Origin: Gammaproteobacteria bacterium
Lineage (GTDB): Bacteria > Pseudomonadota > Gammaproteobacteria > Thiohalomonadales > Thiohalomonadaceae
Length of the DNA stretch: 32,627 bases
Direction of reading: 5' to 3'
Assembly: GCA_003252455.1 (NCBI GenBank)
Contig: QKED01000072.1
Span: forward strand, 1-32,627
The translations under genes and the position numbers were made by a program. Shown here piece after piece: positions 1-32,627 of this stretch; position 1 is the stretch's first letter; every line of letters starts with the position of its first letter. The notes beneath the pieces were generated by a model that was given only the letters and a program-made list of their open reading frames with translations, searched no databases and was not told the origin of the DNA.

Positions 1-511
1 GGTGGTGCAGCAATCCGTGTGGGCCACTCGCATGGGGTAGACGCAGGAGCGCATCGAGGGTGAGGGTCGTCAGTTCGTCCTGTGGATAGTCGAAGAGTCT
101 GCCACTGGCCACGTTCGCCTTGAGCAGATAGCCTCGCTCGTCACAGATCAGAACGGGGTCGAAGGCGTGCTCGAAGAGCTGATTGAGCAGTGTCTGGGTG
201 TGGCGCTCGGTCGCCTCTTGCCCCTCCTGGCGCTGCAACAGCCGGGTGTTACTGCGCACTTGGAGGAGCAGGAGTGAGGCGGCGATGAGCATCAATAAGA
301 TGCTGGCGGCAAAGTGTAGGACGAGACGGTCGACCATGGGGTCGAGCGTGGCGCGACTGATCCAATCGCGCGCGTGGGCCATCTGATCGAGACCGAACCA
401 GGGTGTGAGGGCCAACGCCAGGTTGCCCAGGGCAACCAGTACCAGGCCGACCAGCGCCGGTACGCTCCAGCGTTCGATGCTGCCTGGGTTGCGATCTATC
501 GGGGGGCTCAC
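1..511 (-). CDS. Membrane PAS-domain sensor protein, N-terminal part (C-terminus beyond window)
   Basis: An open frame of 170 codons runs off the left edge. The GTG start at 511 is chosen because an AGGAG box lies about 6 nt upstream. Residues about 13-38 and 62-84 are hydrophobic and look like two membrane segments with a short periplasmic loop. A charged linker follows (about 85-108), then from about residue 110 a PAS-like stretch (FEHAFDPVLICDERGYL, then LFDYPQDEL), the usual start of a PAS sensory domain. The output domain (histidine kinase, GGDEF/EAL or other) is not visible, so the class of sensor is unknown. It lies 169 nt downstream of lipA on the same strand and may have its own promoter. 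Confident that it is coding; function only at the level of a membrane signal-transduction protein. Confidence 0.7.
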   Translation of the reverse strand, partial: MSPPIDRNPGSIERWSVPALVGLVLVALGNLALALTPWFGLDQMAHARDWISRATLDPMVDRLVLHFAASILLMLIAASLLLLQVRSNTRLLQRQEGQEATERHTQTLLNQLFEHAFDPVLICDERGYLLKANVASGRLFDYPQDELTTLTLDALLRLPHASGPHGLLHH

Positions 512-680
512 TCGTGCTCCTGAGCTGTGGGTGAAAGTCACATTTTATCCAACTCAACGGGGAAAAGCAGAACTCTAGAGTCAGCAATTTCTGATGTCTA
601 GCCGCCAGGGCCGGACGAAGTCGGATCGGGTCGCTCAGGGCCGGTGCGCCCGTCGACGGCGGGCGCGGGCCGTGGGGGCT
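512..680 (-). other. Intergenic region lipA / PAS sensor with hairpin and possible -10 box
   Basis: No gene is seen here. Just after the lipA stop, positions 646-666 form a GC-only inverted repeat (GCGCCCG paired with CGGGCGC, tight loop). No T-run follows on the minus strand, so it is at best a weak attenuator. Nearer the sensor gene the minus strand reads GATAAAAT (TAAAAT at 547-542), a plausible -10 box, but no good -35 is seen. An independent promoter for the sensor is possible but not proven. Confidence 0.3.
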
Positions 681-1646
681 CTACTTTACCTCCTGTCCAC
701 GGGCCTGCTGCTCGGCGTGGTAGGAGGAGCGCACCATGGGGCCGCTGGCTACGTGGGTGAAGCCCAAGGCGCGGGCCTCGTCGGCGAACTGTTCGAAGCG
801 TTCGGGGGTTACATAGCGCGCCACCGGGAGGTGGTGGCGACTCGGCTGTAGGTACTGGCCTAGGGTGAGGTGTGAACAGCCGTGGGCGCGCAGGTCACGC
901 AAGACATCGAGCACCTCGTCGTCCGCCTCTCCGAGCCCGAGCATCAAGCCCGATTTGGTCGGTACCGAGGGGAGTCGCTCGCCGACGGCGCGCAGCAGCG
1001 CGAGCGAGCCCTGATAGTCCGCCCCTGGGCGGGATTGTTTGTAGAGGCGCGGTACCGTCTCCAGGTTGTGATTGAAGATATCGGGTGGGGCGCTGGCGAG
1101 CTGCTCCAGGGCGAGGGCCTCTCGACCACGAAAATCGGGGGTGAGCACCTCGATGTGGGTCCCCTCGGCGGCGTCGCGCACGGCACGGATACAGGCGGCG
1201 AAGTGTGCCGCGCCGCCGTCGCGCAGGTCGTCACGGTCTACTGAAGTGATGACCACGAATCGGAGCCCCATGGCGGCCACCGCCGCCGCGAGTTGCATCG
1301 GCTCGGCGGCATCGAGCGGCTCCGGGCGGCCGTGGGCCACATCGCAGAAGGGGCAGCGGCGGGTGCAGATGCCGCCCATGATCATGAAGGTCGCGGTGCC
1401 GTGATGGAAGCACTCGCCGAGATTGGGGCAGGCCGCCTCTTCGCACACGGTGTGTAGGCGCTGCTCGCGCAGGATCCCCTTCAGGCGCTGTACTTCAGGG
1501 CTGTTGGGGGAGCGGGCGCGGATCCAGCTCGGTTTGCGCAGTGGCACCTCGACGGGGACCACCTTGATGGGGATACGCGCGGTCTTCGACTCGCCCTTGA
1601 GTGGATTGGGCGGGAGGATCTCGGGGTCGTCCGGGGTGTGGCTCAT
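681..1646 (-). CDS. lipA: Lipoyl synthase LipA
   Basis: Radical-SAM enzyme that inserts two sulfur atoms at C6 and C8 of protein-bound octanoyl groups, completing lipoate on the E2 subunits and the glycine cleavage H protein. The 321-residue product has the auxiliary 4Fe-4S cluster cysteines (C68, C73, C79 in the [13 protein letters not shown] motif), the radical-SAM CxxxCxxC (C94, C98, C101 in ICTRRCPFC) and the conserved C-terminal RSSYHA serine motif that ligates the auxiliary cluster. The frame stays open further upstream, but the ATG at 1646 is preferred: it has a TGGAGC box about 5 nt upstream, whereas a longer start would run deep into lipB. It begins 11 nt after the lipB stop, so the two are probably translated from one mRNA. 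Very confident. Confidence 0.97.
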
Positions 1647-1657
1647 GGGGGCTCCAG

Positions 1658-2323
1658 TCAGGCGGCGTGGCCGGGGAGGGGGGAGGCGGTGACGTCGATG
1701 GGTGCCGGTAGACCGAGGGTGTGGCACAGGTGCGCCACCAACCGCTGCTCCACCACTTGGCGTGGCGGCATCGTCGTCACCAGGTCGGCGAGGCGGGTGA
1801 CCCTCAGGTCGGCATAGCCGCAAGGATTGATGCGGGCGAAGGGGGCGAGGTCCAAGTCCAGGTTGAGTGCCAGGCCGTGATAGCTGCAGCCGCGCTTCAC
1901 GCGCAGGCCGAGCGAGGCGATCTTGGCCCCATCCACATAGACCCCCGGGGCGTCGCCACGCGCCAGGGCATCGATGCCGTAGTCGTGGAGCAGGTCGATG
2001 AGTGCCTGCTCCATGGCACTCACCAGGCTGCGCACGCCGATACCCAGGCGCTTGAGGTCGAGCAACAGGTAGCCGACCAACTGCCCTGGGCCGTGGTAGG
2101 TGACCTGGCCACCGCGGTCGATGGGGATCACCGGGATCTCGCCGGGGGCGATCAGGTGCTCCGGCTTGCCGTTGAGCCCCTGGGTAAAGACCGGGGGGTG
2201 TTCGAGCAGCCAGATCTCGTCGGCAGAGTGGGCGTTGCGCGAGGCCGTATAGGCCTGCATCGCCTGCCAGATAGGCAGATAGTCGACCTGGCCCAACCGG
2301 CGCAGGTGCAGGGGGGCGACCAT
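1658..2323 (-). CDS. lipB: Octanoyl-[ACP]:protein N-octanoyltransferase LipB
   Basis: Transfers octanoate from acyl carrier protein to the lipoyl-domain lysine, the step before LipA. The 221-residue product carries the family signatures [12 protein letters not shown] (70-81), the catalytic lysine in DGAKIASLG (K134) and the catalytic cysteine in INPCGY (C168). The ATG start overlaps the ybeD stop by one base (TGATG), which indicates translational coupling. The order ybeD-lipB-lipA is the classical gammaproteobacterial one. Very confident. Confidence 0.96.
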
Positions 2324-2592
2324 CAGAGCGCCATCAACACCCGCGTCTCATCGGTCAGCGCCTGATAGATGGCGTCGAGCTGTGCCCGATTGTGCGCGGT
2401 GATGGTGACGGTGATGGAGATGTATTTGCCGTTGCTGCTGGGTCGTTGTTCGACCTTGAGCGGTGCCTGCCCCGCGCAGTGGCGCGCGACGATCTCTAGC
2501 ACCAGTTCGGCAAAACCCGCAAGGTTGTGGCCCATCGCCTTGATTGGGAAAGGGCAGGGGAAGTCGAACAGCTCGTCCAGATTCTCACTCAT
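2323..2592 (-). CDS. ybeD: DUF493 / YbeD-family protein
   Basis: An 89-residue protein of the YbeD (DUF493) family, an ACT-like alpha/beta fold of unclear function that is nearly always encoded beside lipB. The sequence shows the characteristic [11 protein letters not shown] start of the domain and the terminal [14 protein letters not shown] segment; the length matches the family (about 87-90 residues). It overlaps lipB by one base, and follows dat by 18 nt. A regulatory link to lipoate synthesis has been suggested from gene context; the sequence itself does not establish it. Confident in the family, not in the role. Confidence 0.93.
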
Positions 2593-2610
2593 GGGGTGTC
2601 GCTCGTGAGT

Positions 2611-3471
2611 TCAGGCACTGCGCAGTGTGTGCAGGCACGCTTGGTAGAGGTCGAGGCAACGGCGCCAGACCGGGCCGGGCACGCCCTGGCCGATGGGGGC
2701 ACCGTCGAGGTGGGTCACCGGTACCAACTCGCTGACCGAGGAGCTGATCCACACCTCCTCGGCGCCACGCAGCGCGTCGAGGGTGATGGGCACCTCGGCG
2801 CAGGGGAGGCCATGGCTACGGCAGAGCTCCAGGGTCAGGTCGCGGGTGATGCCGGGCAGCAGCAGGCGCCCCTTGGGCGGGGTGCGGATCTCCCCATCGA
2901 TGCACGCGAAGACATTGCTCACCGCGCCCTCGGTCACCTGTCCGTCGCGCACCAGGATCGCCTCGCCTGCGTCGGCCTCCTTCACCTGGATGCGCATGAG
3001 GATATTGGGCAGCAGGTTGATGCTCTTGATGTGGCACCAGCCCCAGCGGATATCCTCCACACTGATGGCGCGGATCCCCTGCATCTGGCGTGTGTCGGCG
3101 GGCGGCAAGGGGGTGCTCATGACGAACAGGGTCGGGTGGACCTCATCGGGTACCGAGTGGTGGCGGGCAGGTGCAGGGCCACGTGTCACCTGCAGGTAGA
3201 GTTGCTGATCGCCGCCGCCGTTCAACGCGATGAGGCGGGTGAAGATCGCCAGCCACGCCTGGGGGTCGAGTGGATTCGCAAGGTCGATACCGGCGAGGCT
3301 CTGGTTCAGACGCTGCAGGTGCTCCTCGGCCCGAAAGGTGCGCCCGGCGTAGACCGGGACCACCTCATAGACCCCGTCGCCGAAGAGAAAGCCGCGGTCG
3401 AGCACCGAGACCTTGGCCTGGTCGAGGGGGAGGTAGTCGCCATTCAGATAGACGATTCGGCTGCTCTCCAT
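2611..3471 (-). CDS. dat: D-amino acid (D-alanine) aminotransferase
   Basis: Fold-type IV PLP aminotransferase of 286 residues, predicted to interconvert D-alanine and 2-oxoglutarate with pyruvate and D-glutamate. The Schiff-base lysine is K149 in CHIKSINLLPN, the cofactor-ring glutamate is E181 in TEGAVSNVF, and the N-terminal VLDRGFLFGDGVYEV block is typical of D-amino acid transaminases rather than of branched-chain ones, though class IV substrate calls from sequence remain uncertain. It sits 9 nt after dacA, whose product releases D-Ala from murein, and before ybeD-lipB. Placement in this operon fits a role in supplying or recycling D-Ala/D-Glu for peptidoglycan (inference). Confidence 0.88.
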   Translation of the reverse strand: MESSRIVYLNGDYLPLDQAKVSVLDRGFLFGDGVYEVVPVYAGRTFRAEEHLQRLNQSLAGIDLANPLDPQAWLAIFTRLIALNGGGDQQLYLQVTRGPAPARHHSVPDEVHPTLFVMSTPLPPADTRQMQGIRAISVEDIRWGWCHIKSINLLPNILMRIQVKEADAGEAILVRDGQVTEGAVSNVFACIDGEIRTPPKGRLLLPGITRDLTLELCRSHGLPCAEVPITLDALRGAEEVWISSSVSELVPVTHLDGAPIGQGVPGPVWRRCLDLYQACLHTLRSA

Positions 3472-24064: not shown

Positions 24065-25291
24065 TCAGCCCACCACCTCACCCATCTTGAAGATGGGCAA
24101 GTACATGGCGATCACCAGGCCACCGACCACGACGCCGAGGAAGGCCATGATCATCGGCTCCATCAGGGAGCTGAGGCTGTCCACCGCGTTGTCGACCTCC
24201 TCCTCGTAGAAGTCGGCCACCTTGCCGAGCATGGTGTCGAGTGAGCCCGCCTCTTCACCGATGGTGGCCATCTGCACCACCATGTTGGGGAAGATGCCGG
24301 TCTCCGCCATGCTCTGTGTCACCGAGGTGCCGGTGGCAACGTCGTCACGGATCTTGAGGACGGCATTTTTGAACACGATGTTGCCGACCGCACCCGAGAC
24401 CGAGTCCATCGCCTCGACCAGCGGCACACCGGCAGCGAACATGGTGGAGAGGGTACGGGCAAAACGGGCAATGGCCGCTTTGGTGAGGATTTCGCCAAAG
24501 ATCGGGGCGTGGAGCGAGGCCCGCTGTACGGCCTCGTTGAACGCCTTGGAGCGTCTGTTGAGGGTGGAGAAGCCGTAGGAGAACCCGAAGATAAAGCCGA
24601 AGAGCGCCCACCACCACTCCAACACAAAGTGCGACATATCCACCACGAACTGGGTGGGTGCCGGGAGATTGGCGCCAAAGCCTGAGAAGAGGGACTCGAA
24701 CTGCGGGATCACAAAGATCAGCAGGATGATGGTGATGATGAAGGCGACGATCACCACGGCCGTCGGGTAGGTGAGGGCCTTTTTGATCTTGCCCTTGATG
24801 ATCTCGGTCTTCTCTTTGTAGGTGGCGATCTTGTCCAGAAGGTCCTCAAGAATACCGGCCTGCTCACCGGCATGTATCAAGTTACAGGTGAGATCGTCGA
24901 AGTATTGCGGGTGGCGTCTGAAGGCGTCGGCCATGGGCAGACCACCTTCGAGGTCGGTCTTTACTGTGGCAATCAGCGCAGCGAGGGCGCCATTCTCCGT
25001 ACCCTTGGCCATGATGTCGAAGGACTGCACCAGCGGTACACCCGAGGACATCATCACCGCCAACTGGCGAGTGAAGATAGCAATATCCTTCGGCAGGATC
25101 TTTCCCTTCGGTTTGGAGCCGAAGAGCGAGGCGGCTTTTTTCTTGACTTTGAGGGGGTTGATACCCTGCCGGCGAAGCTCGGTCTTGACCAGGGCGGGCG
25201 AGGTACCCGACATCTCACCCTTGACTCGCTCCCCCTTCTTGTTAGTCCCTTCCCAAGAGTAGGTATCTTTTTTGTCCTGTTTCGCTGCCAT
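24065..25291 (-). CDS. pilC: Type IV pilus inner-membrane platform protein PilC
   Basis: 408 residues, GspF/PilC family. It couples the PilB/PilT motors to pilin assembly. Two homologous halves are visible: each carries a four-helix cytoplasmic domain (FTRQLAVMMSSGVPLVQSFD and FARTLSTMFAAGVPLVEAMD), with membrane helices around 175-195, 225-245 and near the C-terminus (PMIMAFLGVVVGGLVIAMYL). AAGGA lies 6 nt before the ATG and the gene starts 2 nt after the pilB stop. Very confident. Confidence 0.97.
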   Translation of the reverse strand: MAAKQDKKDTYSWEGTNKKGERVKGEMSGTSPALVKTELRRQGINPLKVKKKAASLFGSKPKGKILPKDIAIFTRQLAVMMSSGVPLVQSFDIMAKGTENGALAALIATVKTDLEGGLPMADAFRRHPQYFDDLTCNLIHAGEQAGILEDLLDKIATYKEKTEIIKGKIKKALTYPTAVVIVAFIITIILLIFVIPQFESLFSGFGANLPAPTQFVVDMSHFVLEWWWALFGFIFGFSYGFSTLNRRSKAFNEAVQRASLHAPIFGEILTKAAIARFARTLSTMFAAGVPLVEAMDSVSGAVGNIVFKNAVLKIRDDVATGTSVTQSMAETGIFPNMVVQMATIGEEAGSLDTMLGKVADFYEEEVDNAVDSLSSLMEPMIMAFLGVVVGGLVIAMYLPIFKMGEVVG

Positions 25292-25293
25292 GG

Positions 25294-27024
25294 TTAATCC
25301 TTGGTTACGCGGTTGATCTCTTCAAGGCTGGTGAGTCCGTCCATGACCTTTTTCAGTGCGGACCGTCGCAGGTCGGGAATTCCCTCTTTATGCGCCTGGT
25401 CGGCGATATCGTACGAGGTGGCCGAGCCGGTCATGATGAGGCGTCCCATGTCCTCGGAGATAGGCATGACCTGGTAGATGCCGACACGTCCCTTATAACC
25501 CGCGTTGCAGGAGTCACAGCCCGCCGTGTTGGCCTTGTAGAGTTTGAAACCGGTATCGATCTGCGCCTGGGTGAAACCCTCTTCGAGCTTGGCCGCCTCG
25601 GGGATCTCTTCGACCAGTTTGCAGCTGGAGCAGAGGCGCCGGGCAAGGCGTTGGGCAATGATGAGGTTGACCGCCGAGGCGATGTTATAGGGTGGGATGC
25701 CGATGTTCATCAGACGGGTGATGGTCTGTGGGGCGTCGTTGGTGTGCAGGGTAGACATCACCATATGGCCGGTCTGGGCGGCCTTGACGGCAATCTCTGC
25801 GGTGGTGATGTCACGAATCTCACCCACCATGATGATGTCAGGGTCCTGACGTAGGAAGGATTTGAGTGCGGCGGCGAAGGTGAGGCCGACCTTGTCGTTT
25901 ACGTTGACCTGGTTGATGCCTTCGAGGTTGATTTCCGCCGGATCCTCGGCGGTGGAGATGTTGATATCTTCACGGTTGAGGATGTTCAGACCGGTATAGA
26001 GCGACACCGTCTTACCCGAGCCGGTCGGGCCGGTCACCAGGATCATGCCGTAGGGCTTGGCGAGGTTGTCGAGATAGAGCTGCTTTTGTTCGGGCTCGTA
26101 ACCGAGGGCGTCGATACCCAGCTTGGCGCTGGAGGGATCGAGAATACGCATCACGGTCTTTTCGCCGAACAGGGTCGGGCAGGTGCTGACACGAAAGTCG
26201 ATGGCCTTGTTCTTCGACAGAGTCAGCTTGATACGGCCGTCCTGCGGAACGCGCTTCTCCGAGACGTCGAGCTTGGACATCACCTTGATACGCGCGGCGA
26301 TCTTCGCTGCCAACTGGATCGGCGGGCTGGAGACCTCGCGCAGCATGCCGTCCTGGCGCAGGCGCACGCGGTAGCGCTTCTCGTAGGGCTCGAAGTGGAT
26401 ATCCGAGGCGCCTTTGTTGATGGCGTCGAGCAACACTTTGTTGACGAAGCGCACCACCGGGGCGTCGTCGATATCCGATTCGGCGGAGGTCCCCTCGGGC
26501 TCTTTGCCCTCGTTCTCCGCCTCGATATCGAGGTCTTCCAACCCCTCGTCGGCGAGTCCTGCCATGGAGGTGTCGTTGGCCTCCAGAGCGGCGTTGATCG
26601 CGGAGTCGAGCTTGTTCTCCTCGACCAACACCGGGACAGTGTTGATACCGACGTGGAACTTCACCTCATCGAGGCCCGCCAGTTGGGTCGGGTCGGAGAT
26701 GGCGACGAAGAAGGTGTTGCCGCGGCGGTAGAGTGGCAGGATATGGTGGTTACGCACCAACTTCTCATCCACCATCTTCACGACTTCGTTGTCGATATCC
26801 ATGGCGGAGAGGTCTAGGAGCGGTAGACCGAAGTCGGTGGAACCGATGGTGGCGACCTGGCGTGGGTCGACCATCTTCTCCTTTACGGCGCAGGTGATGA
26901 AGGGCAGCCCCTGCTCACTGGCGAGCTTGATCGCCTTGGCGGCGTTCTCTTCGGTGATGAGTTTGTCGATGACAAGTTTCTTCGCCAAGCCCGTGAGCAT
27001 GGGGGTCGCTGAGGGGGTCGCCAT
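25294..27024 (-). CDS. pilB: Type IV pilus assembly ATPase PilB
   Basis: Hexameric motor that powers pilus extension. The 576-residue product has an N-terminal MshE-like domain, a linker, and the ATPase domain with Walker A GPTGSGKT (332-339), the Asp box, Walker B DPDIIMVGEIRD (394-405) and the His box. The zinc-binding tetracysteine CSSC...CDSC near the C-terminus marks PilB rather than PilT. It heads pilBCD-coaE-yacG. No pilin gene is next to it. A paired octamer lies about 60 nt upstream. Confidence 0.97.
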   Translation of the reverse strand: MATPSATPMLTGLAKKLVIDKLITEENAAKAIKLASEQGLPFITCAVKEKMVDPRQVATIGSTDFGLPLLDLSAMDIDNEVVKMVDEKLVRNHHILPLYRRGNTFFVAISDPTQLAGLDEVKFHVGINTVPVLVEENKLDSAINAALEANDTSMAGLADEGLEDLDIEAENEGKEPEGTSAESDIDDAPVVRFVNKVLLDAINKGASDIHFEPYEKRYRVRLRQDGMLREVSSPPIQLAAKIAARIKVMSKLDVSEKRVPQDGRIKLTLSKNKAIDFRVSTCPTLFGEKTVMRILDPSSAKLGIDALGYEPEQKQLYLDNLAKPYGMILVTGPTGSGKTVSLYTGLNILNREDINISTAEDPAEINLEGINQVNVNDKVGLTFAAALKSFLRQDPDIIMVGEIRDITTAEIAVKAAQTGHMVMSTLHTNDAPQTITRLMNIGIPPYNIASAVNLIIAQRLARRLCSSCKLVEEIPEAAKLEEGFTQAQIDTGFKLYKANTAGCDSCNAGYKGRVGIYQVMPISEDMGRLIMTGSATSYDIADQAHKEGIPDLRRSALKKVMDGLTSLEEINRVTKD

Positions 27025-27322
27025 AGCGTGATAGGCCCTTGATAACAGTGATTTAGGTCTGTCTTTTTTGCCCTAAGTACGTCAAAGTAGTACGTCTTAG
27101 TGCCTCCTTTTACAGTCCCAACACTTTAGCCATCTGCTGCGGAAAAGTGAACTCCTCGGCACCAGAGTGCGTCACACTTTGGCATTACTTCAGGGGTATA
27201 TACCGTTGTGATTCGGCTGGGAGATGGCGGCTACGTCAGGCGCTGTTCACCCTAAAGTAGCATTGTCCAGGTCCTCGTTGGTCTGGTATCTATCTCGCAA
27301 AATTCATTGGAGCTGAGCTACG
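27025..27322. promoter_or_regulatory. Divergent control region between pilB and the spermidine-synthase-like operon
   Basis: 298 nt without a gene, less GC-rich than its flanks. Plus strand: TTGTCC (27263-27268) and TATCTA (27287-27292), 18 nt apart, form a plausible sigma-70 promoter about 30 nt before the first gene. Toward pilB there are two direct copies of AGTACGTC (27076-27083 and 27089-27096) with a 13-nt period, and a 10-bp palindrome GGTATATACC (near 27196-27207). No sigma-54 box of the type often used by pilA genes was recognised. Confidence 0.4.
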
Positions 27323-29068
27323 TTGCGATTGAGGGAACACCCTTCGCTCCTCGGGCGAGACCTGGCCATCTTTCTCATCATGGCCATTCTGGCCGGGTGT
27401 GGATTGGTCTACGAGTATCTGGTCTCGCACTATGCCGGGCGTGTGCTCGGGGCGATGGAGACCGCCATCTACGGCATCATCGGTACCATGATCGTCTCCA
27501 TGGGCATCGGCTCGTTCCTGGCCCGACGCATCCGTGACGCTCACAGCGGCTTCGCCTGGCTGGAGGTACTCATCGCCCTGTTGGGTGTCTCCTCGGTGTT
27601 GATCATCTCGGCCACTTTTGCCATCGCCAACCTCTTGCCACATGTCATTGGTCAGGTCTTCGACCTGCCACCGGACCTGCTGCCCCGAGGTGGTGGCATC
27701 GAGTGGGCGCGACAGATTGCCAAGGTCTCGCCCTATGTGATCGGTGCCATCCTCGGCATCCTCATCGGTATGGAGATCCCGCTCATCGCACGGGTGCGCG
27801 AGGCGCTCTATGGCGAGCACCTGGAGCACAATACCGGTTCCATCTATGGCATCGACTACATCGGCGCTGGGGTAGGGGCTGCGCTCTGGGTGCTGTTCAT
27901 GCTGAGCATGGACCTGACCCTCTCCGCGGCCCTCACCGCCTCGGCCAATCTTGCGGTGGGGGTGCTCTTCTTCGTCCTCTTTCGCGATAAAATCCGTTGG
28001 CCGCGTCTGCTCCTCGCCGCCCATTTGCTCACCTTCCTGCTCGTGCTGCTCATCGCCGAGCAGGGGCAGGAGTGGGAGACGGCCATGGAAGACCTGCTCT
28101 ATCAGGACCACGTGGTGTTCCGTATGAACACCACGTTCCAGCACCTGACGATTACCCGGCGCATCAACGACCCGCGCAAGGCGCCGGTCTACACCTTCTT
28201 TCTTAACGGGCGCACCCAGTTCGCCAGTAACGATGAGCGCATCTACCACGCCATGCTGGTCTATCCCGCCTTGGCGGCCTCGGCGCGACACGATCGCGTG
28301 CTGGTGATTGGCGGTGGGGATGGCCTCGCCCTGCGTGACATCCTCAAGTGGGAGCCCAAACAGGTGGTTCTGGTCGACCTCGACCGTGAGCTGGTGGACT
28401 TCTTCACCCACCCCTACAGCGTGGACGGAGAGGTGGTCAACCAGGCACTGCTGGAGCTCAACGAGTTCTCCTTCAGCGACCCGCGAGTGCAGGTGCATAT
28501 CGGTGACGCCTTTACCCAGGTCGACGCCCTGATCGAGGCCGGAGCGCTGTTCGATACCATCATCGTCGACCTGCCCGACCCTAGCCACCCGGACTTGAAC
28601 AAGCTCTACAGCACGCGTTTTTACGCCAAACTGCGTAATCTCCTCGCCGGGGATGGGGCGATGACAGTGCAGTCCACCTCGCCTTACCACGCCAAACACG
28701 CCTTCCTCTCCATCGGGAAGACGGTGGCCTACGCCGATTTCGCCCATGTGGAGCAGTACCACCACAACGTCCCCTCGTTCGGCGAGTGGGGCTGGACCAT
28801 CGCGGTACGCAACGGCGCCCCCGCGCGTACACGTCTCGCACGGTTGGATGAACCACTGGCGGTGGACGATGGTTGGACCACGCGCGGCGTGATGCTCGCC
28901 GCTTTTGAATTTAGTCGCCATTTCTTCGATGATGTGCCAGCGATCAAGGTAAATCACCTCGGTTCTATGGTTGCCTATCAATACCATCAGAATGATTGGC
29001 GGCGTGAACAGGGGATCTTCACCCCCTTTGAAGACACGCAAGCAACACCCACAAAGGAGACGCAATGA
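27323..29068 (+). CDS. Membrane-embedded spermidine synthase-like aminopropyltransferase
   Basis: 581 residues from a TTG start; an in-frame TGA three codons upstream rules out longer forms. The first about 245 residues form about seven hydrophobic segments. The rest is a spermidine/spermine synthase-type Rossmann domain: ASNDERIYHAML (301-312, the QxTxxDExxYHE region), VLVIGGGDG (327-334, SAM/decarboxy-SAM site), VDLDRE (351-356), HIGDAF (392-397) and DLPDP (416-420) in place of the DxxDP of classical enzymes. Predicted to transfer an aminopropyl or related group at the membrane; substrate unknown. Its stop overlaps the next start (ATGA). Head of the operon. Confidence 0.87.
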   Translation: MRLREHPSLLGRDLAIFLIMAILAGCGLVYEYLVSHYAGRVLGAMETAIYGIIGTMIVSMGIGSFLARRIRDAHSGFAWLEVLIALLGVSSVLIISATFAIANLLPHVIGQVFDLPPDLLPRGGGIEWARQIAKVSPYVIGAILGILIGMEIPLIARVREALYGEHLEHNTGSIYGIDYIGAGVGAALWVLFMLSMDLTLSAALTASANLAVGVLFFVLFRDKIRWPRLLLAAHLLTFLLVLLIAEQGQEWETAMEDLLYQDHVVFRMNTTFQHLTITRRINDPRKAPVYTFFLNGRTQFASNDERIYHAMLVYPALAASARHDRVLVIGGGDGLALRDILKWEPKQVVLVDLDRELVDFFTHPYSVDGEVVNQALLELNEFSFSDPRVQVHIGDAFTQVDALIEAGALFDTIIVDLPDPSHPDLNKLYSTRFYAKLRNLLAGDGAMTVQSTSPYHAKHAFLSIGKTVAYADFAHVEQYHHNVPSFGEWGWTIAVRNGAPARTRLARLDEPLAVDDGWTTRGVMLAAFEFSRHFFDDVPAIKVNHLGSMVAYQYHQNDWRREQGIFTPFEDTQATPTKETQ

Positions 29069-29484
29069 GCGAGCAACAGTTGCAGGCGATCTGCCAGGGC
29101 CTGAACGGCATCACCACCGAGGAGGGCTTCACCTTCTGCGCTGTGATGGTCAAAGAGGGTGACGTCACCCTGGCCAAGGTCGAGGTCGAGGACCGCGAGG
29201 AGTTCCCCATCTTCATCTCACTGGACGACGACCAGTTGGTCTGCATGACCTACCTCTGGCCCGAGTCCGAGGTCAAGACCGAGCGCCGCGGTGAACTGCT
29301 GGAGGCGATGTTGACCATGAACGTACCCATGCCCCTCTCCTCGTTCGGCAAGGTGGGCGATCAGTACCTCATCTTCGGGGCCATGGCCAACAACAGCGAG
29401 ATGGCCGAGATCCAGCACGAGCTGATGGTGCTCAGTGACAACACCCTGAGCGCGGTGGAACTCTTCACCGATTACCTCAACTAA
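29065..29484 (+). CDS. DUF2170 (YjfI-like) protein
   Basis: 139 residues, acidic, soluble, no signal peptide. It resembles E. coli YjfI (DUF2170): short alpha/beta protein with VEVEDREEFPIFISLDDDQLVCMTYLW, LLEAMLTMNVPMPLSSFG and YLIFGAMANNS blocks. It overlaps the upstream gene by ATGA and precedes the pspA-like gene by 34 nt; GGAG lies 6 nt upstream. In E. coli yjfI is likewise followed by the PspA-like yjfJ. The fold and context suggest a small chaperone- or adaptor-like partner of the PspA protein (inference). Confidence 0.85.
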   Translation: MSEQQLQAICQGLNGITTEEGFTFCAVMVKEGDVTLAKVEVEDREEFPIFISLDDDQLVCMTYLWPESEVKTERRGELLEAMLTMNVPMPLSSFGKVGDQYLIFGAMANNSEMAEIQHELMVLSDNTLSAVELFTDYLN

Positions 29485-29518: not shown

Positions 29519-30211
29519 ATGAGCATTTGGAACAAACTGCTGACCGCCATGCGCGGTGCTGCCAACGAGGCAGGCGAGGCCATCGTCGACAACCAGGCCC
29601 TGCGCATCCTCGACCAGGAGATGCGTGACGCCAAGGAGCACCTGGGCCGAGCCAAGGAGTCCCTCACCGCCGTGATGGCCGAGGAGATGGGCGTACGCCG
29701 TAAGGTCGAGCAACTGCGTAAATCCATCGAAGAGCACGAGGGCTATGCCGTCAGCGCCATGAACAAGGGCGACGAGGGACTGGCCATGGAGGTGGCGGAG
29801 AAGATCGCCGAACTCGAAGGCGAGCTGGAGGCCCAGGAGACCCTGCTCAAGGGCTACACCGACAATGTCGCTCAGCTCAAGCGCACCATCGCCGAGACCG
29901 AGCGCAACATCCGTACGATGGAGCGCGAAGTCTCCGCCGTGAAGGCCACCGACGCAGTGCAGAAGGCCAGTAGCGCCGCTGCCGCCAAGTTCTCCGGCAG
30001 CAACTCCTCTATGCGCTCCGCCACCGACTCCCTGGAGCGCATCAAGGCCAAGCAGCAGAAGCGTGCCGACCAGATGAAGGCCGCGATGGAGCTGCAGAAC
30101 GAGAGCAGTGGCGCCGACCTGCAGGCCAAGCTCAAGGCCGCAGGCGTGGTCACCGGCGCCTCCAGCGCCAACTCCGTGCTCGAACGCCTGAAGAAGCAGC
30201 AGGGCAGCTGA
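29519..30211 (+). CDS. PspA/IM30-family membrane-remodelling protein (YjfJ-like)
   Basis: 230 residues, almost entirely predicted coiled coil, the ESCRT-III-like PspA/Vipp1 fold. N-terminal MSIWNKLLTAMRGAANEAGEAIVDNQALRILDQE is typical: an amphipathic membrane-binding helix followed by the NQALRILDQE motif of the IM30 start. The C-terminus is rich in Ser/Ala and ends in a charged helix (SVLERLKKQQGS). It is encoded with DUF2170 upstream and DUF2491 downstream, as yjfJ in E. coli, so it belongs to the YjfJ branch and not to the pspF-pspABC locus. AAGGAG precedes the ATG. Followed by a set of hairpins. Confidence 0.9.
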   Translation: MSIWNKLLTAMRGAANEAGEAIVDNQALRILDQEMRDAKEHLGRAKESLTAVMAEEMGVRRKVEQLRKSIEEHEGYAVSAMNKGDEGLAMEVAEKIAELEGELEAQETLLKGYTDNVAQLKRTIAETERNIRTMEREVSAVKATDAVQKASSAAAAKFSGSNSSMRSATDSLERIKAKQQKRADQMKAAMELQNESSGADLQAKLKAAGVVTGASSANSVLERLKKQQGS

Positions 30212-30372
30212 GGCCCGGGTGGCCGCGAAGGCGGTCACCTCACCCGATGGTATGTTTGACGCGCCGACCCAAGCGCGTCACGCTCTGTGCCTTCACCGTC
30301 ACACCCGCAGTGAACGGGTGACCCGGTCGAAGGTGCGACACGGTTATTTCCCAGGACGAGGAGGGGAGTGTG
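30212..30372 (+). promoter_or_regulatory. Structured spacer with three successive hairpins between pspA-like and SPFH genes
   Basis: Hairpin 1, 30219-30238: GTGGCCGC, loop GAAG, GCGGTCAC. Hairpin 2, 30257-30280: perfect TGACGCGC, 8-nt loop, GCGCGTCA. Hairpin 3, about 30298-30322: GTCACACCCG against CGGGTGAC with a two-base bulge. None is followed by a clear T-run, so these may be attenuators, processing sites or a protein-binding leader. A GAGGAGG ribosome site closes the region before the SPFH gene. Confidence 0.6.
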
Positions 30373-31836
30373 ATGAGTGAGGTCGTAACACCGGACAGCC
30401 CCAAGGGGCGTCTCGGGCGGTTGCTTGCGCGTGGTGGTGCCATGATGCGCTACACCTTGGCGGGCATCCTATTCCTGACGGGTGGGCTAATGCTCACCAC
30501 CTTCTGGTTCCAGACCGACGCGGGGTATACCTACGTCTACCAAAACAACATCACCGGCCAGCTCTCGGTCTACACCGAGCCGGGGATCCACTTTCGAATC
30601 CCTGGCTTCTCGCGCGTCTTCGAGTACAAGCAGGTGATGACCATCTCCTTCGGCGGCGAGGGCGACCATGACGGGCCGCTCGACTCCTTCAGCCGCAACT
30701 ACTCCACCCGTGGCCTGGAGCCCATCAGCGTACGCTTCGCCGACACCTACACCGGGCTGCTGCCGACGACCTTCCGCTTCAAGCTCTCCTCGGACCCTGA
30801 GCGCATCCTGCAGATGCATCGCGAGTTCCGAAACTTCGACAATCTAGTCGACGCCCTGCTGGTGAAGAATGCACGCAACGTCACGGTGATCACCGCCACC
30901 CAGTACACTGGTGAGGAGTTCTTCCAGGGGGGGCTCAACCAGTTCAAGGCCAAGCTCGAAGACCAACTGCGCAACGGTATCTACATCACCGAGCGCCGTC
31001 AGGTGGAGATCGAGCAGACCGACCTCGCCCCTGTGGGGCTCGATCAGTCCGACTCCAACAAGCTGCAGAGCACCAAGCAGTTGGTGTGGAAGACCGTCCC
31101 GCTGCTGGATGACAACGGCGCCGTGCGTCGCCAACCCAATCCCCTCGACCAGTATGGCATCGAGGTGACCCAGGTGACCGTGGGTGACCCGGTGCCCGAG
31201 GCGCAGCTCAACACCCTGCTGACGGACAAGAAGCGCCTGGTCGCCGAGCGCATTCGCACCATCCAGGAGCAGGAGACCGCCCGCGCCCAGGCCAAGACCG
31301 AACAGCTGAAGAAGGAGATCGAGCGCACTCGTGCCGTGCAGGACGCCCAGCGCGAGAAGGAGTTGGCGGTCATTGCCCAGCAGCGCGAGGTGGAGGTGGC
31401 TCGTCAGATCGCCGAACGTGAGCTGGTCGAGCAGCGCAAGAAGAAGGATGTCGCCGCGGTAGAGAAGGAGAAGGAGCTGGCGGTGGCCGAGGCCAATCGC
31501 AACATCCAGAAGGCCAACGCCGAGGCGGCAAAATTCGAGGCCGAGGCGATCCGCGAAAAGGGTCAGGCGGAGGCCGAGGTGACCAAGGCCAAGTACGCCG
31601 CGCTGGGGGCCAATCAGGTCATCTATCTGGCAGAGATCCGCCGCGACATCGCCCGCGTCATGTATGAAAACCTCAAAGACTTCACGGTGCAGATGCCGCG
31701 CAACCTCATTACCGGTGACGCCCAGGGCGGCCTCAACACCAATCTCGACGTCATCTCCGCCTTCGCCGCCCTCGGCCTGATGGAGAAGGGCGGCAAACTG
31801 GCCGAGGGTGATGCCTCGGGCGCCGACAACCGTTAA
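30373..31836 (+). CDS. SPFH/band-7 (flotillin/prohibitin-like) membrane scaffold protein
   Basis: 487 residues from ATG 30373, 8 nt after AGGAGG; a GTG one codon earlier (30370) is possible but too close to the ribosome site. One N-terminal membrane segment (about 25-47), then a band-7/SPFH domain (about 50-270; AGYTYVYQNNITGQLSVYTEPGIHFRIPG). A very long charged coiled coil follows (about 285-410, Glu/Lys/Ala/Arg-rich). A short C-terminal region follows. This domain order fits a membrane-associated oligomer of the HflK/flotillin type. It sits between PspA-like and YjfK-like genes, suggesting it is a scaffold for that system. Confidence 0.9.
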   Translation: MSEVVTPDSPKGRLGRLLARGGAMMRYTLAGILFLTGGLMLTTFWFQTDAGYTYVYQNNITGQLSVYTEPGIHFRIPGFSRVFEYKQVMTISFGGEGDHDGPLDSFSRNYSTRGLEPISVRFADTYTGLLPTTFRFKLSSDPERILQMHREFRNFDNLVDALLVKNARNVTVITATQYTGEEFFQGGLNQFKAKLEDQLRNGIYITERRQVEIEQTDLAPVGLDQSDSNKLQSTKQLVWKTVPLLDDNGAVRRQPNPLDQYGIEVTQVTVGDPVPEAQLNTLLTDKKRLVAERIRTIQEQETARAQAKTEQLKKEIERTRAVQDAQREKELAVIAQQREVEVARQIAERELVEQRKKKDVAAVEKEKELAVAEANRNIQKANAEAAKFEAEAIREKGQAEAEVTKAKYAALGANQVIYLAEIRRDIARVMYENLKDFTVQMPRNLITGDAQGGLNTNLDVISAFAALGLMEKGGKLAEGDASGADNR

Positions 31837-31853: not shown

Positions 31854-32495
31854 ATGGGATTCTTCAAGGGCATCTTTGGGGGTGACGAGCAACCTGAGCG
31901 CCCCGTGCGCACCCTCGACCACCCCAAGTCGCTGCAGATCGGCGATATGCTCAAGCTCGGTTTTACCGGCGAAGAGGGGCTCTCGGCCCAGACCTTCACC
32001 GTCAAGGGGATCGACACCCAGGACCTCGGTGGCGAGGCGCTCAAGAAGGCGCTCTTCAACGTCGAGGGGGTCGACGGCCACTATCGCATGGCGGTGGTCA
32101 AGGAGCGGGGGGAGGAGTGGCTGGAGGTAGCGCGTCAGTGCTACCCCGAGGATGTGCTCTCGATCTTCGAGCAGGAGGCCTTTATCGATCTGCTCGACCC
32201 CGAGACCGGCGTCAACCACTCCCTGGCGCGCATCGGCGAGCCCGCCGAGTTCAGCGGCTGGACCTGTGCCGCCTACCGCCAAGAGGCAGGGCACAACGCC
32301 TATTTCCATCACGGCGACTATCGCAACCGCTCTATCACCTATGTGCAGGGCGAGGCGTTCAGCTACTACCGCCTGGTGAGCGACGAGCGCCTCTGTGCCT
32401 TGGAGGTGCAGGTCTATGACGGTGGGCGTACCGACGTCTGGCTGTGCAAACTGCTGCCGCTGCACAAGGTCGAGGAGCTGTGGCCCGCCGCCTGA
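31854..32495 (+). CDS. DUF2491 (YjfK-like) protein
   Basis: 213 residues, soluble, acidic. Starts MGFFKGIFGG and shows the DUF2491 pattern: DHPKSLQIGDMLKLGF, CYPEDVLSIFEQEAFIDLLDP and a C-terminal YYRLVSDERLCALEVQVYDGGRTDV. E. coli YjfK has the same family and lies after yjfJ. It starts 17 nt after the SPFH stop with AAGGAG upstream, and is followed 25 nt later by another gene. Function unknown; by context part of the PspA-like membrane system. Confidence 0.85.
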   Translation: MGFFKGIFGGDEQPERPVRTLDHPKSLQIGDMLKLGFTGEEGLSAQTFTVKGIDTQDLGGEALKKALFNVEGVDGHYRMAVVKERGEEWLEVARQCYPEDVLSIFEQEAFIDLLDPETGVNHSLARIGEPAEFSGWTCAAYRQEAGHNAYFHHGDYRNRSITYVQGEAFSYYRLVSDERLCALEVQVYDGGRTDVWLCKLLPLHKVEELWPAA

Positions 32496-32520: not shown

Positions 32521-32627
32521 ATGTTCAGTTGGCTCTTCACCTGGGTGCGCGTGCATCGCAACCGCCCTTCACGGGCGCTGCGCCTGGAGCTCGGGCGCAC
32601 CCTGGTTCAGACCGGTCTCTACCTCCT
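32521..32627 (+). CDS. Unidentified protein, N-terminal 35 residues only
   Basis: An ATG at 32521 with AAGGAG 6 nt upstream opens a frame that runs off the window. Visible residues MFSWLFTWVRVHRNRPSR and LELGRTLVQTGLYLL suggest a basic, partly hydrophobic N-terminus, perhaps of a membrane protein. By analogy with the E. coli locus a DUF350 (YjfL-like) or other membrane protein would be a candidate, but 35 residues are too few to say. Confidence 0.6.
   Translation, partial: MFSWLFTWVRVHRNRPSRALRLELGRTLVQTGLYL

Follow-up and report, generated by a model that had tools for sequence, protein, structure and literature searches.

The window analysed here, a stretch of 32,627 nucleotides that forms one contig (QKED01000072.1) of a Gammaproteobacteria bacterium, encodes a membrane protein that we interpret as an aminopropyltransferase of the COG4262/NF002956 type using decarboxylated SAM (dcAdoMet), composed of a bundle resembling half of an MFS transporter, a seventh helix and a SpeE-like domain predicted to be periplasmic, all within a PspA-DUF2170 envelope operon. 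We give this joint explanation a probability of about 0.5. Within it, dependence on dcAdoMet and aminopropyl transfer is, judged from the sequence, very probable, and the periplasmic position of the catalytic domain is somewhat favoured. This is mostly a known family in which one motif was misread in the initial annotation; both the family and the operon are already catalogued, and the new part is the predicted topology.

Table 1. Features of the synthase gene, its product and the genes downstream (window coordinates; rows are the window protein and its relatives).
Feature	Position	Strand	Basis
Possible ribosome-binding site GGAG, 10 bases before TTG	27309..27312	+	Sequence only
Membrane aminopropyltransferase gene (NF002956 / COG4262 type), 581 aa, TTG start	27323..29068	+	NF002956 profile, ORF reading
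Residues 1-223, six-helix bundle like half an MFS transporter	27323..27991	+	Structure alignment
Helix 7, residues 227-257, from the cytoplasmic side outward in the inferred topology	28001..28093	+	Model, hydropathy
SpeE-like catalytic part, residues 251-560, no cysteine	28073..29002	+	Pfam, structure alignment, cysteine count
D304 E305 .. Y308 H309 motif	28232..28249	+	81/81 rows
GGGDG, residues 330-334	28310..28324	+	81/81 rows
D416-L-P-D419-P420, intact DxxDP gatekeeper loop	28568..28582	+	81/81 rows
DUF2170 protein	29065..29484	+	PF09938 1.2e-29; four-base overlap with the end of the synthase gene
PspA/IM30 protein	29519..30211	+	PF04012 2e-42
SPFH/Band 7 protein, insertion between the PspA and 213-aa genes	30370..31836	+	PF01145
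213-aa protein, at the DUF4178 position of the published operon	31854..32495	+	No Pfam match

The reading frame was confirmed as initially described, with a TTG start next to an upstream in-frame stop, a TGA that begins nine bases ahead of it. This start is plausible because the second choice, the in-frame ATG at 27380, falls inside helix 1 and would cut into it. The TTG start was also considered as a sign of regulation and rejected, since 23 of the 80 relatives are likewise without an ATG before helix 1. The reduced translation that the initial annotation read into this start is unsupported.

Of 428 relatives confirmed in scanning genome contigs, the best 80 were used in the analyses; conservation was counted over 81 rows, i.e. 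the window protein plus the 80 relatives. The NCBIfam profile NF002956 (PRK03612, polyamine aminopropyltransferase) matches residues 12-562 with 587.3 bits, above its cut-off of 472, and the membrane half alone scores 213.9 bits against it. The SpeE equivalog TIGR00417 gives 111.1 bits, below its cut-off of 249.55, and the Pfam domain Spermine_synth (PF01564) matches residues 305-499. We take COG4262 and NF002956/PRK03612 to be two names covering the same proteins; nothing on COG4262 topology or activity was found in the searched literature, among the matches listed. The name and description of COG4262 follow the available portion of PMC4510999. Aminopropyltransferases were the best solved relatives in the sequence comparison, and the modelled catalytic part aligns with Thermus thermophilus SpeE (1uir) at Z 35.3 over 280 residues (2.2 A), with the Medicago thermospermine synthase (MtTSPS) at Z 32.8, with Pyrobaculum SpeE (PcSpeE) at Z 31.9 and with E. 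coli SpeE at Z 28.6. The initial annotation had named a collapsed cofactor pocket as grounds for abandoning its proposal; with Z values of up to 35.3 to solved aminopropyltransferases, the predicted fold is not collapsed.

The phylogeny suggested at the same time was made with 40 rows: the window protein, 16 of the 80 PspA-type relatives, three of ten ordinary COG4262 members, 13 of 31 soluble SpeE, one fusion and six PDB chains, with G363 absent. The ten ordinary members include L012, and G257, with only a partial membrane match, was left out. A branch with 100/100 support separates the membrane proteins from the rest, and thus the window protein does not cluster with ordinary soluble SpeE; the PspA-linked clade has a support of 99/98. 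The soluble SpeE of the window's own genome groups with the other soluble enzymes.

The catalytic residues of TIGR00417-type enzymes (DxxDP, GGGDG and Tyr-His) are present in 81 of 81 rows, and D304, E305, Y308, H309, D333, D416, D419, P423 and Q450 are invariant. That GGGDG (330-334) and the DE..YH region (304-309) are kept had been seen correctly from the start. The same annotation held that the classical DxxDP loop was replaced, which was a misreading: DLPDP is itself D-x-x-D-P, with both aspartates and the proline kept in all 81 rows, which also keep the gatekeeper proline. The altered active-site signature is therefore rejected, and with that premise wrong there is no reason for the changed acceptor that had been deduced from it. 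Compared with canonical SpeE, Leu-Pro replaces Ser-Thr between the aspartates, HPDLNKLYS closes the loop, PTYPSG becomes PSFGEW (Pyrobaculum 7xif likewise has PSFG) and the Glu after Tyr-His is lost, with A310 in the window protein and, over the 81 rows, Ser in 44, Ala in 19, Gly in six, Lys in five, Gln in four, Glu in two and another residue in one. DLPDP, DMPDP or DFPDP is usual in membrane-fused homologues, being found in 10 of 10 ordinary members.

In Plasmodium SpdS, as described in the accessible part of PMC4356361, His103, Asp127 and Asp196 hold the aminopropyl nitrogen. By motif they correspond to H309, D333 and D416, which never vary in the 81 rows, supporting the retained binding of dcAdoMet proposed initially. 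Furthermore, Y308, D419 and P423 match other ligand contacts given there for PfSpdS and are identical in 81/81, and the sole mapped contact that changed is Tyr264, a Phe in 81/81. According to the accessible text of PMC11107197, bacterial spermine synthases are marked by D(G/C)G in motif 2 together with Glu in motif 3, and thermospermine synthases by Glu in motif 2, a rule to which two exceptions have been published. Motif 2 reads DGL in all 81 rows, always with Asp, and motif 3, by alignment D352, is Asp in 77 and Glu in four of 81. Applied to these sequences, the published rules exclude the spermine-synthase pattern and would also disfavour a thermospermine synthase, leaving the substrate unspecified.

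In the operon, homologues of the neighbouring genes were detected by tblastn among the 80 relatives for DUF2170 (68), PspA (66), the 213-aa protein (63), YjfL (69) and the lipoprotein (68), the denominator including loci that end at contig ends. The SPFH/Band 7 gene was found in none of the 80 (tblastn, E 1e-4), and in one relative (L144, from G008) the 19 kb read contains the synthase but neither DUF2170 nor PspA nor YjfL. An operon with PspA and a synthase bearing a "7TM transporter-like domain" is described in the available part of PMC11237479 (Ravi et al. 2024), so the synthase-PspA-DUF2170 association was already known; that text ties such operons to intracellular membrane dynamics and polyamine level and mentions other substrates of aminopropylation. 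The core arrangement given there, a 7TM synthase, a CesT/Tir-like protein and PspA, is found adjacent in the window when the DUF2170 protein is taken as the CesT/Tir-like partner. The window contig (C55) ends at 32627. Contig C112 of the same genome (positions 1-3028, locus L190 of G000) starts inside a homologue of the Kch-type potassium-channel gene of the relatives, followed by lipoprotein and YjfL genes, and the operon therefore probably continues there across the contig break. On the other side of the synthase, divergent genes lie on the minus strand at 24065-27024, which from their translations we take to be type IV pilus PilC and PilB-like.

The donor was approached through SpeD, in a class sample of 377 genomes that includes 14 carriers of the PspA-linked enzyme (bits over 600), spread over ten family labels. 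All 14 carriers have SpeD, against 217 of the 377 genomes overall (Fisher p 3.6e-4, kinship ignored). Among the 80 loci it is encoded in 17, and in four of them it lies ~40-90 bp upstream on the same strand. Decarboxylated SAM is favoured as donor because SpeD occurs in every carrier of the sample and is sometimes adjacent. A carrier outside the class sample, G012 (72% complete), gave no SpeD match. Soluble SpeE is also found in nine of the 14 carriers (>140 bits, frames of ~300 aa), and there SpeD is explainable without the membrane enzyme since the soluble one would need it. The other five (G008, G071, G183, G337 and G363), without a match of the soluble type, all have SpeD, in G008 as a partial match. 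As unambiguous evidence for the use of dcAdoMet, G071 was discarded: G180, from the same genus, encodes SpeD without any PF01564 match, so that SpeD need not imply the membrane enzyme. G180 itself is a candidate for a neofunctionalised or polyamine-independent SpeD.

The cleanest case left for dcAdoMet use is G363, a genome of 1.1 Mb with no PF01564 match besides the synthase in the operon. Its locus (L141, 1544-7407) is a run of SpeD, lipoprotein, YjfL, synthase, DUF2170, PspA and DUF4178-like genes. The genome has one PF02784 match, which from its score is presumably LysA. The SpeD scores 88.5 bits against TIGR03330 (cut-off 75.65), a profile that may not separate neofunctionalised decarboxylases. 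Such neofunctionalised SpeD, acting as ornithine or arginine decarboxylases, appear in the available part of PMC10407285, and the G363 protein could be one of them. In the window's genome ordinary-type SpeE, SpeD and SpeA are also present, making the membrane enzyme an extra.

The seven-helix membrane anchor noted initially is corroborated by hydropathy, which gives seven hydrophobic segments (threshold 1.5), and by an AlphaFold2 model with seven membrane-length helices plus a short one (151-163) in residues 7-257 and a mean pLDDT of 88.3. The model was built from a 53-row alignment, the window protein plus 52 of the 80 loci picked for spread (L068, with a stop, was left out). Residues 1-223 modelled alone reach a pLDDT of 92.7 and align with one half of MFS transporters at Z 15.1-17.6 over 175-202 residues (50 entries listed). 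This match comes from VIA-align of Foldseek candidates; with Foldseek alone, no hit to the membrane part reached significance (best E 0.02). The spermine-bound 9d7x (Z 16.0) and the spermidine-bound 9d7v (Z 15.2) both tie with many other entries. Both termini of an MFS half are cytoplasmic. The loop charges point the same way: over the 53 rows, loops L2, L4 and L6 (39 residues in the window protein) contain on average 7.3 Lys plus Arg, and L1, L3, L5 plus the beginning of the catalytic part (67 residues) 4.0. The even loops are denser in 53 of 53 rows, which would place the N-terminus inside, and also in 10 of 10 ordinary COG4262 proteins, whose helix limits were set by alignment because the hydropathy segment counts were uneven (6, 5 and 7 in three members at the first threshold). 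With the N-terminus inside, by loop charges and MFS-half fold, and seven helices, the catalytic domain would come to lie outside the cytoplasm. The bundle also contains four buried acids, E31, E81, E151 and D178, kept in 80, 81, 81 and 81 of the 81 rows (Gln at the E81 position in four of ten ordinary members), which would suit a path for a cation, dcAdoMet or a polyamine.

Cysteine content was used as another indication of location. The catalytic domains of the 81 proteins contain two cysteines in 26,149 residues, with none in 79, and 201 would be expected at the rate of neighbouring ORFs. Soluble SpeE has 1.73 cysteines per 100 residues, 4.9 each on average (30 of 31 rows, L021 left out as a long frame), DUF2170 has 1.42 per 100 and the linked SpeD 2.14 per 100. 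No cysteine was found in 2649 residues of the predicted outer loops L1, L3 and L5, and 16 in 583 residues of the predicted cytoplasmic loop L2. The predicted cytoplasmic L4 and L6 are cysteine-poor too (one in 958 and none in 530), the PspA of these loci has 0.03 per 100 (none in 62 of 66), and 134 of 678 other mechanically called ORFs of at least 200 aa are cysteine-free. Ordinary COG4262 domains have nine in 2995 residues (10 proteins, about one each). Since the cytoplasmic PspA is almost cysteine-free too, and the 81 rows are related, the scarcity would be support, not proof, for a periplasmic catalytic domain.

We know of no dcAdoMet exporter, and dcAdoMet and SpeD are cytoplasmic, which counts against periplasmic catalysis. 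The same aminopropyltransferase could instead have its catalytic domain in the cytoplasm and produce spermidine or a related polyamine at the inner membrane face, beside PspA and DUF2170. This placement seems rather unlikely to us given the odd helix number, the positive-inside charges in both sets of proteins, the orientation of MFS halves and the near absence of cysteine from the catalytic domain, even if SpeD, PspA and DUF2170 are established or expected to be cytoplasmic, SpeD is encoded near the gene in the 17 loci, and the operons are related to intracellular membrane dynamics and polyamine level in the accessible portion of PMC11237479.

A wider comparison was made with 18 other proteins combining PF01564 and membrane helices (L170-L186 and L004), 17 of them from nine genomes and L004 from the window's genome; up to nine PF01564 matches occur in one genome with such MFS-fused proteins. 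At a hydropathy threshold of 1.4, the domain is preceded in 12 of the 18 by 13 helices, the number in an MFS transporter plus one, so the odd helix number recurs in a second architecture. L183 and L185 have 12, L186 six and L004 ten, and L181 and L184 have helices on both sides of the domain. Positive-inside charges have the same sense as in the window protein in all 12 of the 13-helix proteins, the domain stretch is without cysteine in 13 of 18, and 13 helices and a cysteine-free domain go together in 10 of 18. Three of four scanned passed the cut-off of NF037959 (fused MFS/spermidine synthase), and NF002956 aligns to the second membrane half plus the domain of L171. In 11 of 11 loops readable by pattern another residue stands at the second Asp of DxxDP (EPSNP, DLFHP or ELLKP), and the Asp of GGGDG is lost in 10 of 10 readable. 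These losses, together with that of the Glu after Tyr-His (kept in 2 of 81), would fit a domain without aminopropyl transfer, i.e. a polyamine or dcAdoMet sensor or a SAM methyltransferase that signals to PspA. For the window protein we regard this as very improbable, because the mapped ligand-contacting side chains are invariant except for Tyr264 to Phe and there is an association with SpeD.

In the preferred reading of a periplasmic aminopropyltransferase, SpeD would make dcAdoMet in the cytoplasm, and the half-MFS bundles might pair within the SpeE dimer, giving twelve helices with the buried acids E31, E81, E151 and D178. This hypothetical paired bundle would pass dcAdoMet or an amine across the inner membrane, and the outer domain would transfer the aminopropyl group to a putative periplasmic amine, the resulting polycation helping to stabilise the envelope when PspA is engaged. 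An amino lipid or peptide of the membrane might also be the acceptor in place of a free polyamine, as the initial annotation proposed, and a membrane-side acceptor is conceivable because the catalytic domain is predicted to be periplasmic. The fusion of the synthase to a membrane bundle would agree with it, as would the established action of PspA on membranes, the aminopropylation of other substrates mentioned in the available text of PMC11237479, and the soluble SpeE, SpeD and SpeA of the genome, which would make plain spermidine synthesis redundant. We consider it improbable, since the Tyr and Asp residues through which SpdS binds the acceptor amines are unchanged (Y308, D416 and D419), the nearest folds are soluble enzymes acting on small amines, and the altered-loop argument fails.

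Extending the periplasmic reading, we tentatively propose, with doubts prevailing, that COG4262 and probably also the MFS-fused proteins hold their SpeE-like domain outside, the paired bundle exporting dcAdoMet or moving polyamine in a vectorial periplasmic synthesis linked to PspA defence. If the domain is periplasmic, this would be, to our knowledge, the first known aminopropyltransferase outside the cytoplasm. It would imply that dcAdoMet or polyamines have a way across the inner membrane, and would account both for the fusion of a polyamine enzyme to a transporter-like bundle and for its retention next to PspA.

Among known systems, the likeness to COG4262/PRK03612 (NF002956) extends over the full length, membrane half included, and all ten ordinary members have DxPDP, and GGGDG followed by L, M or F, as in the window protein; the PspA-linked clade differs from them in that the Glu of YHE is lost in nearly all rows and the catalytic-domain cysteines are nearly all lost. 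The Thermus thermophilus triamine/agmatine aminopropyltransferase SpeE (1uir, 3anx) has the catalytic fold in common but is soluble, with 25% identity and without a membrane part. The soluble SpeE of the window's genome (C84, L007:4474-5346) likewise has the PF01564 fold and the catalytic aspartates, but with DSTDP, GGGDCG and YHE, and again without a membrane part. Compared with a twelve-helix, two-half MFS transporter, the window protein has one half only (Z up to 17.6). The NF037959 fusions also have a membrane part followed by a SpeE-like domain, and an odd helix number in those 12 of 18, but most contain a full MFS plus one helix and the second Asp of DxxDP is lost. Finally, the operon has the synthase, DUF2170, PspA and DUF4178-position genes in common with the Shewanella operon of Ravi et al. 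2024 (AAN56744.1, AAN56746.1, AAN56747.1), as given in the accessible part of PMC11237479, with Kch, lipoprotein and YjfL genes lying here on C112, the probable continuation of the operon, and with an extra SPFH/Band 7 gene in the window.
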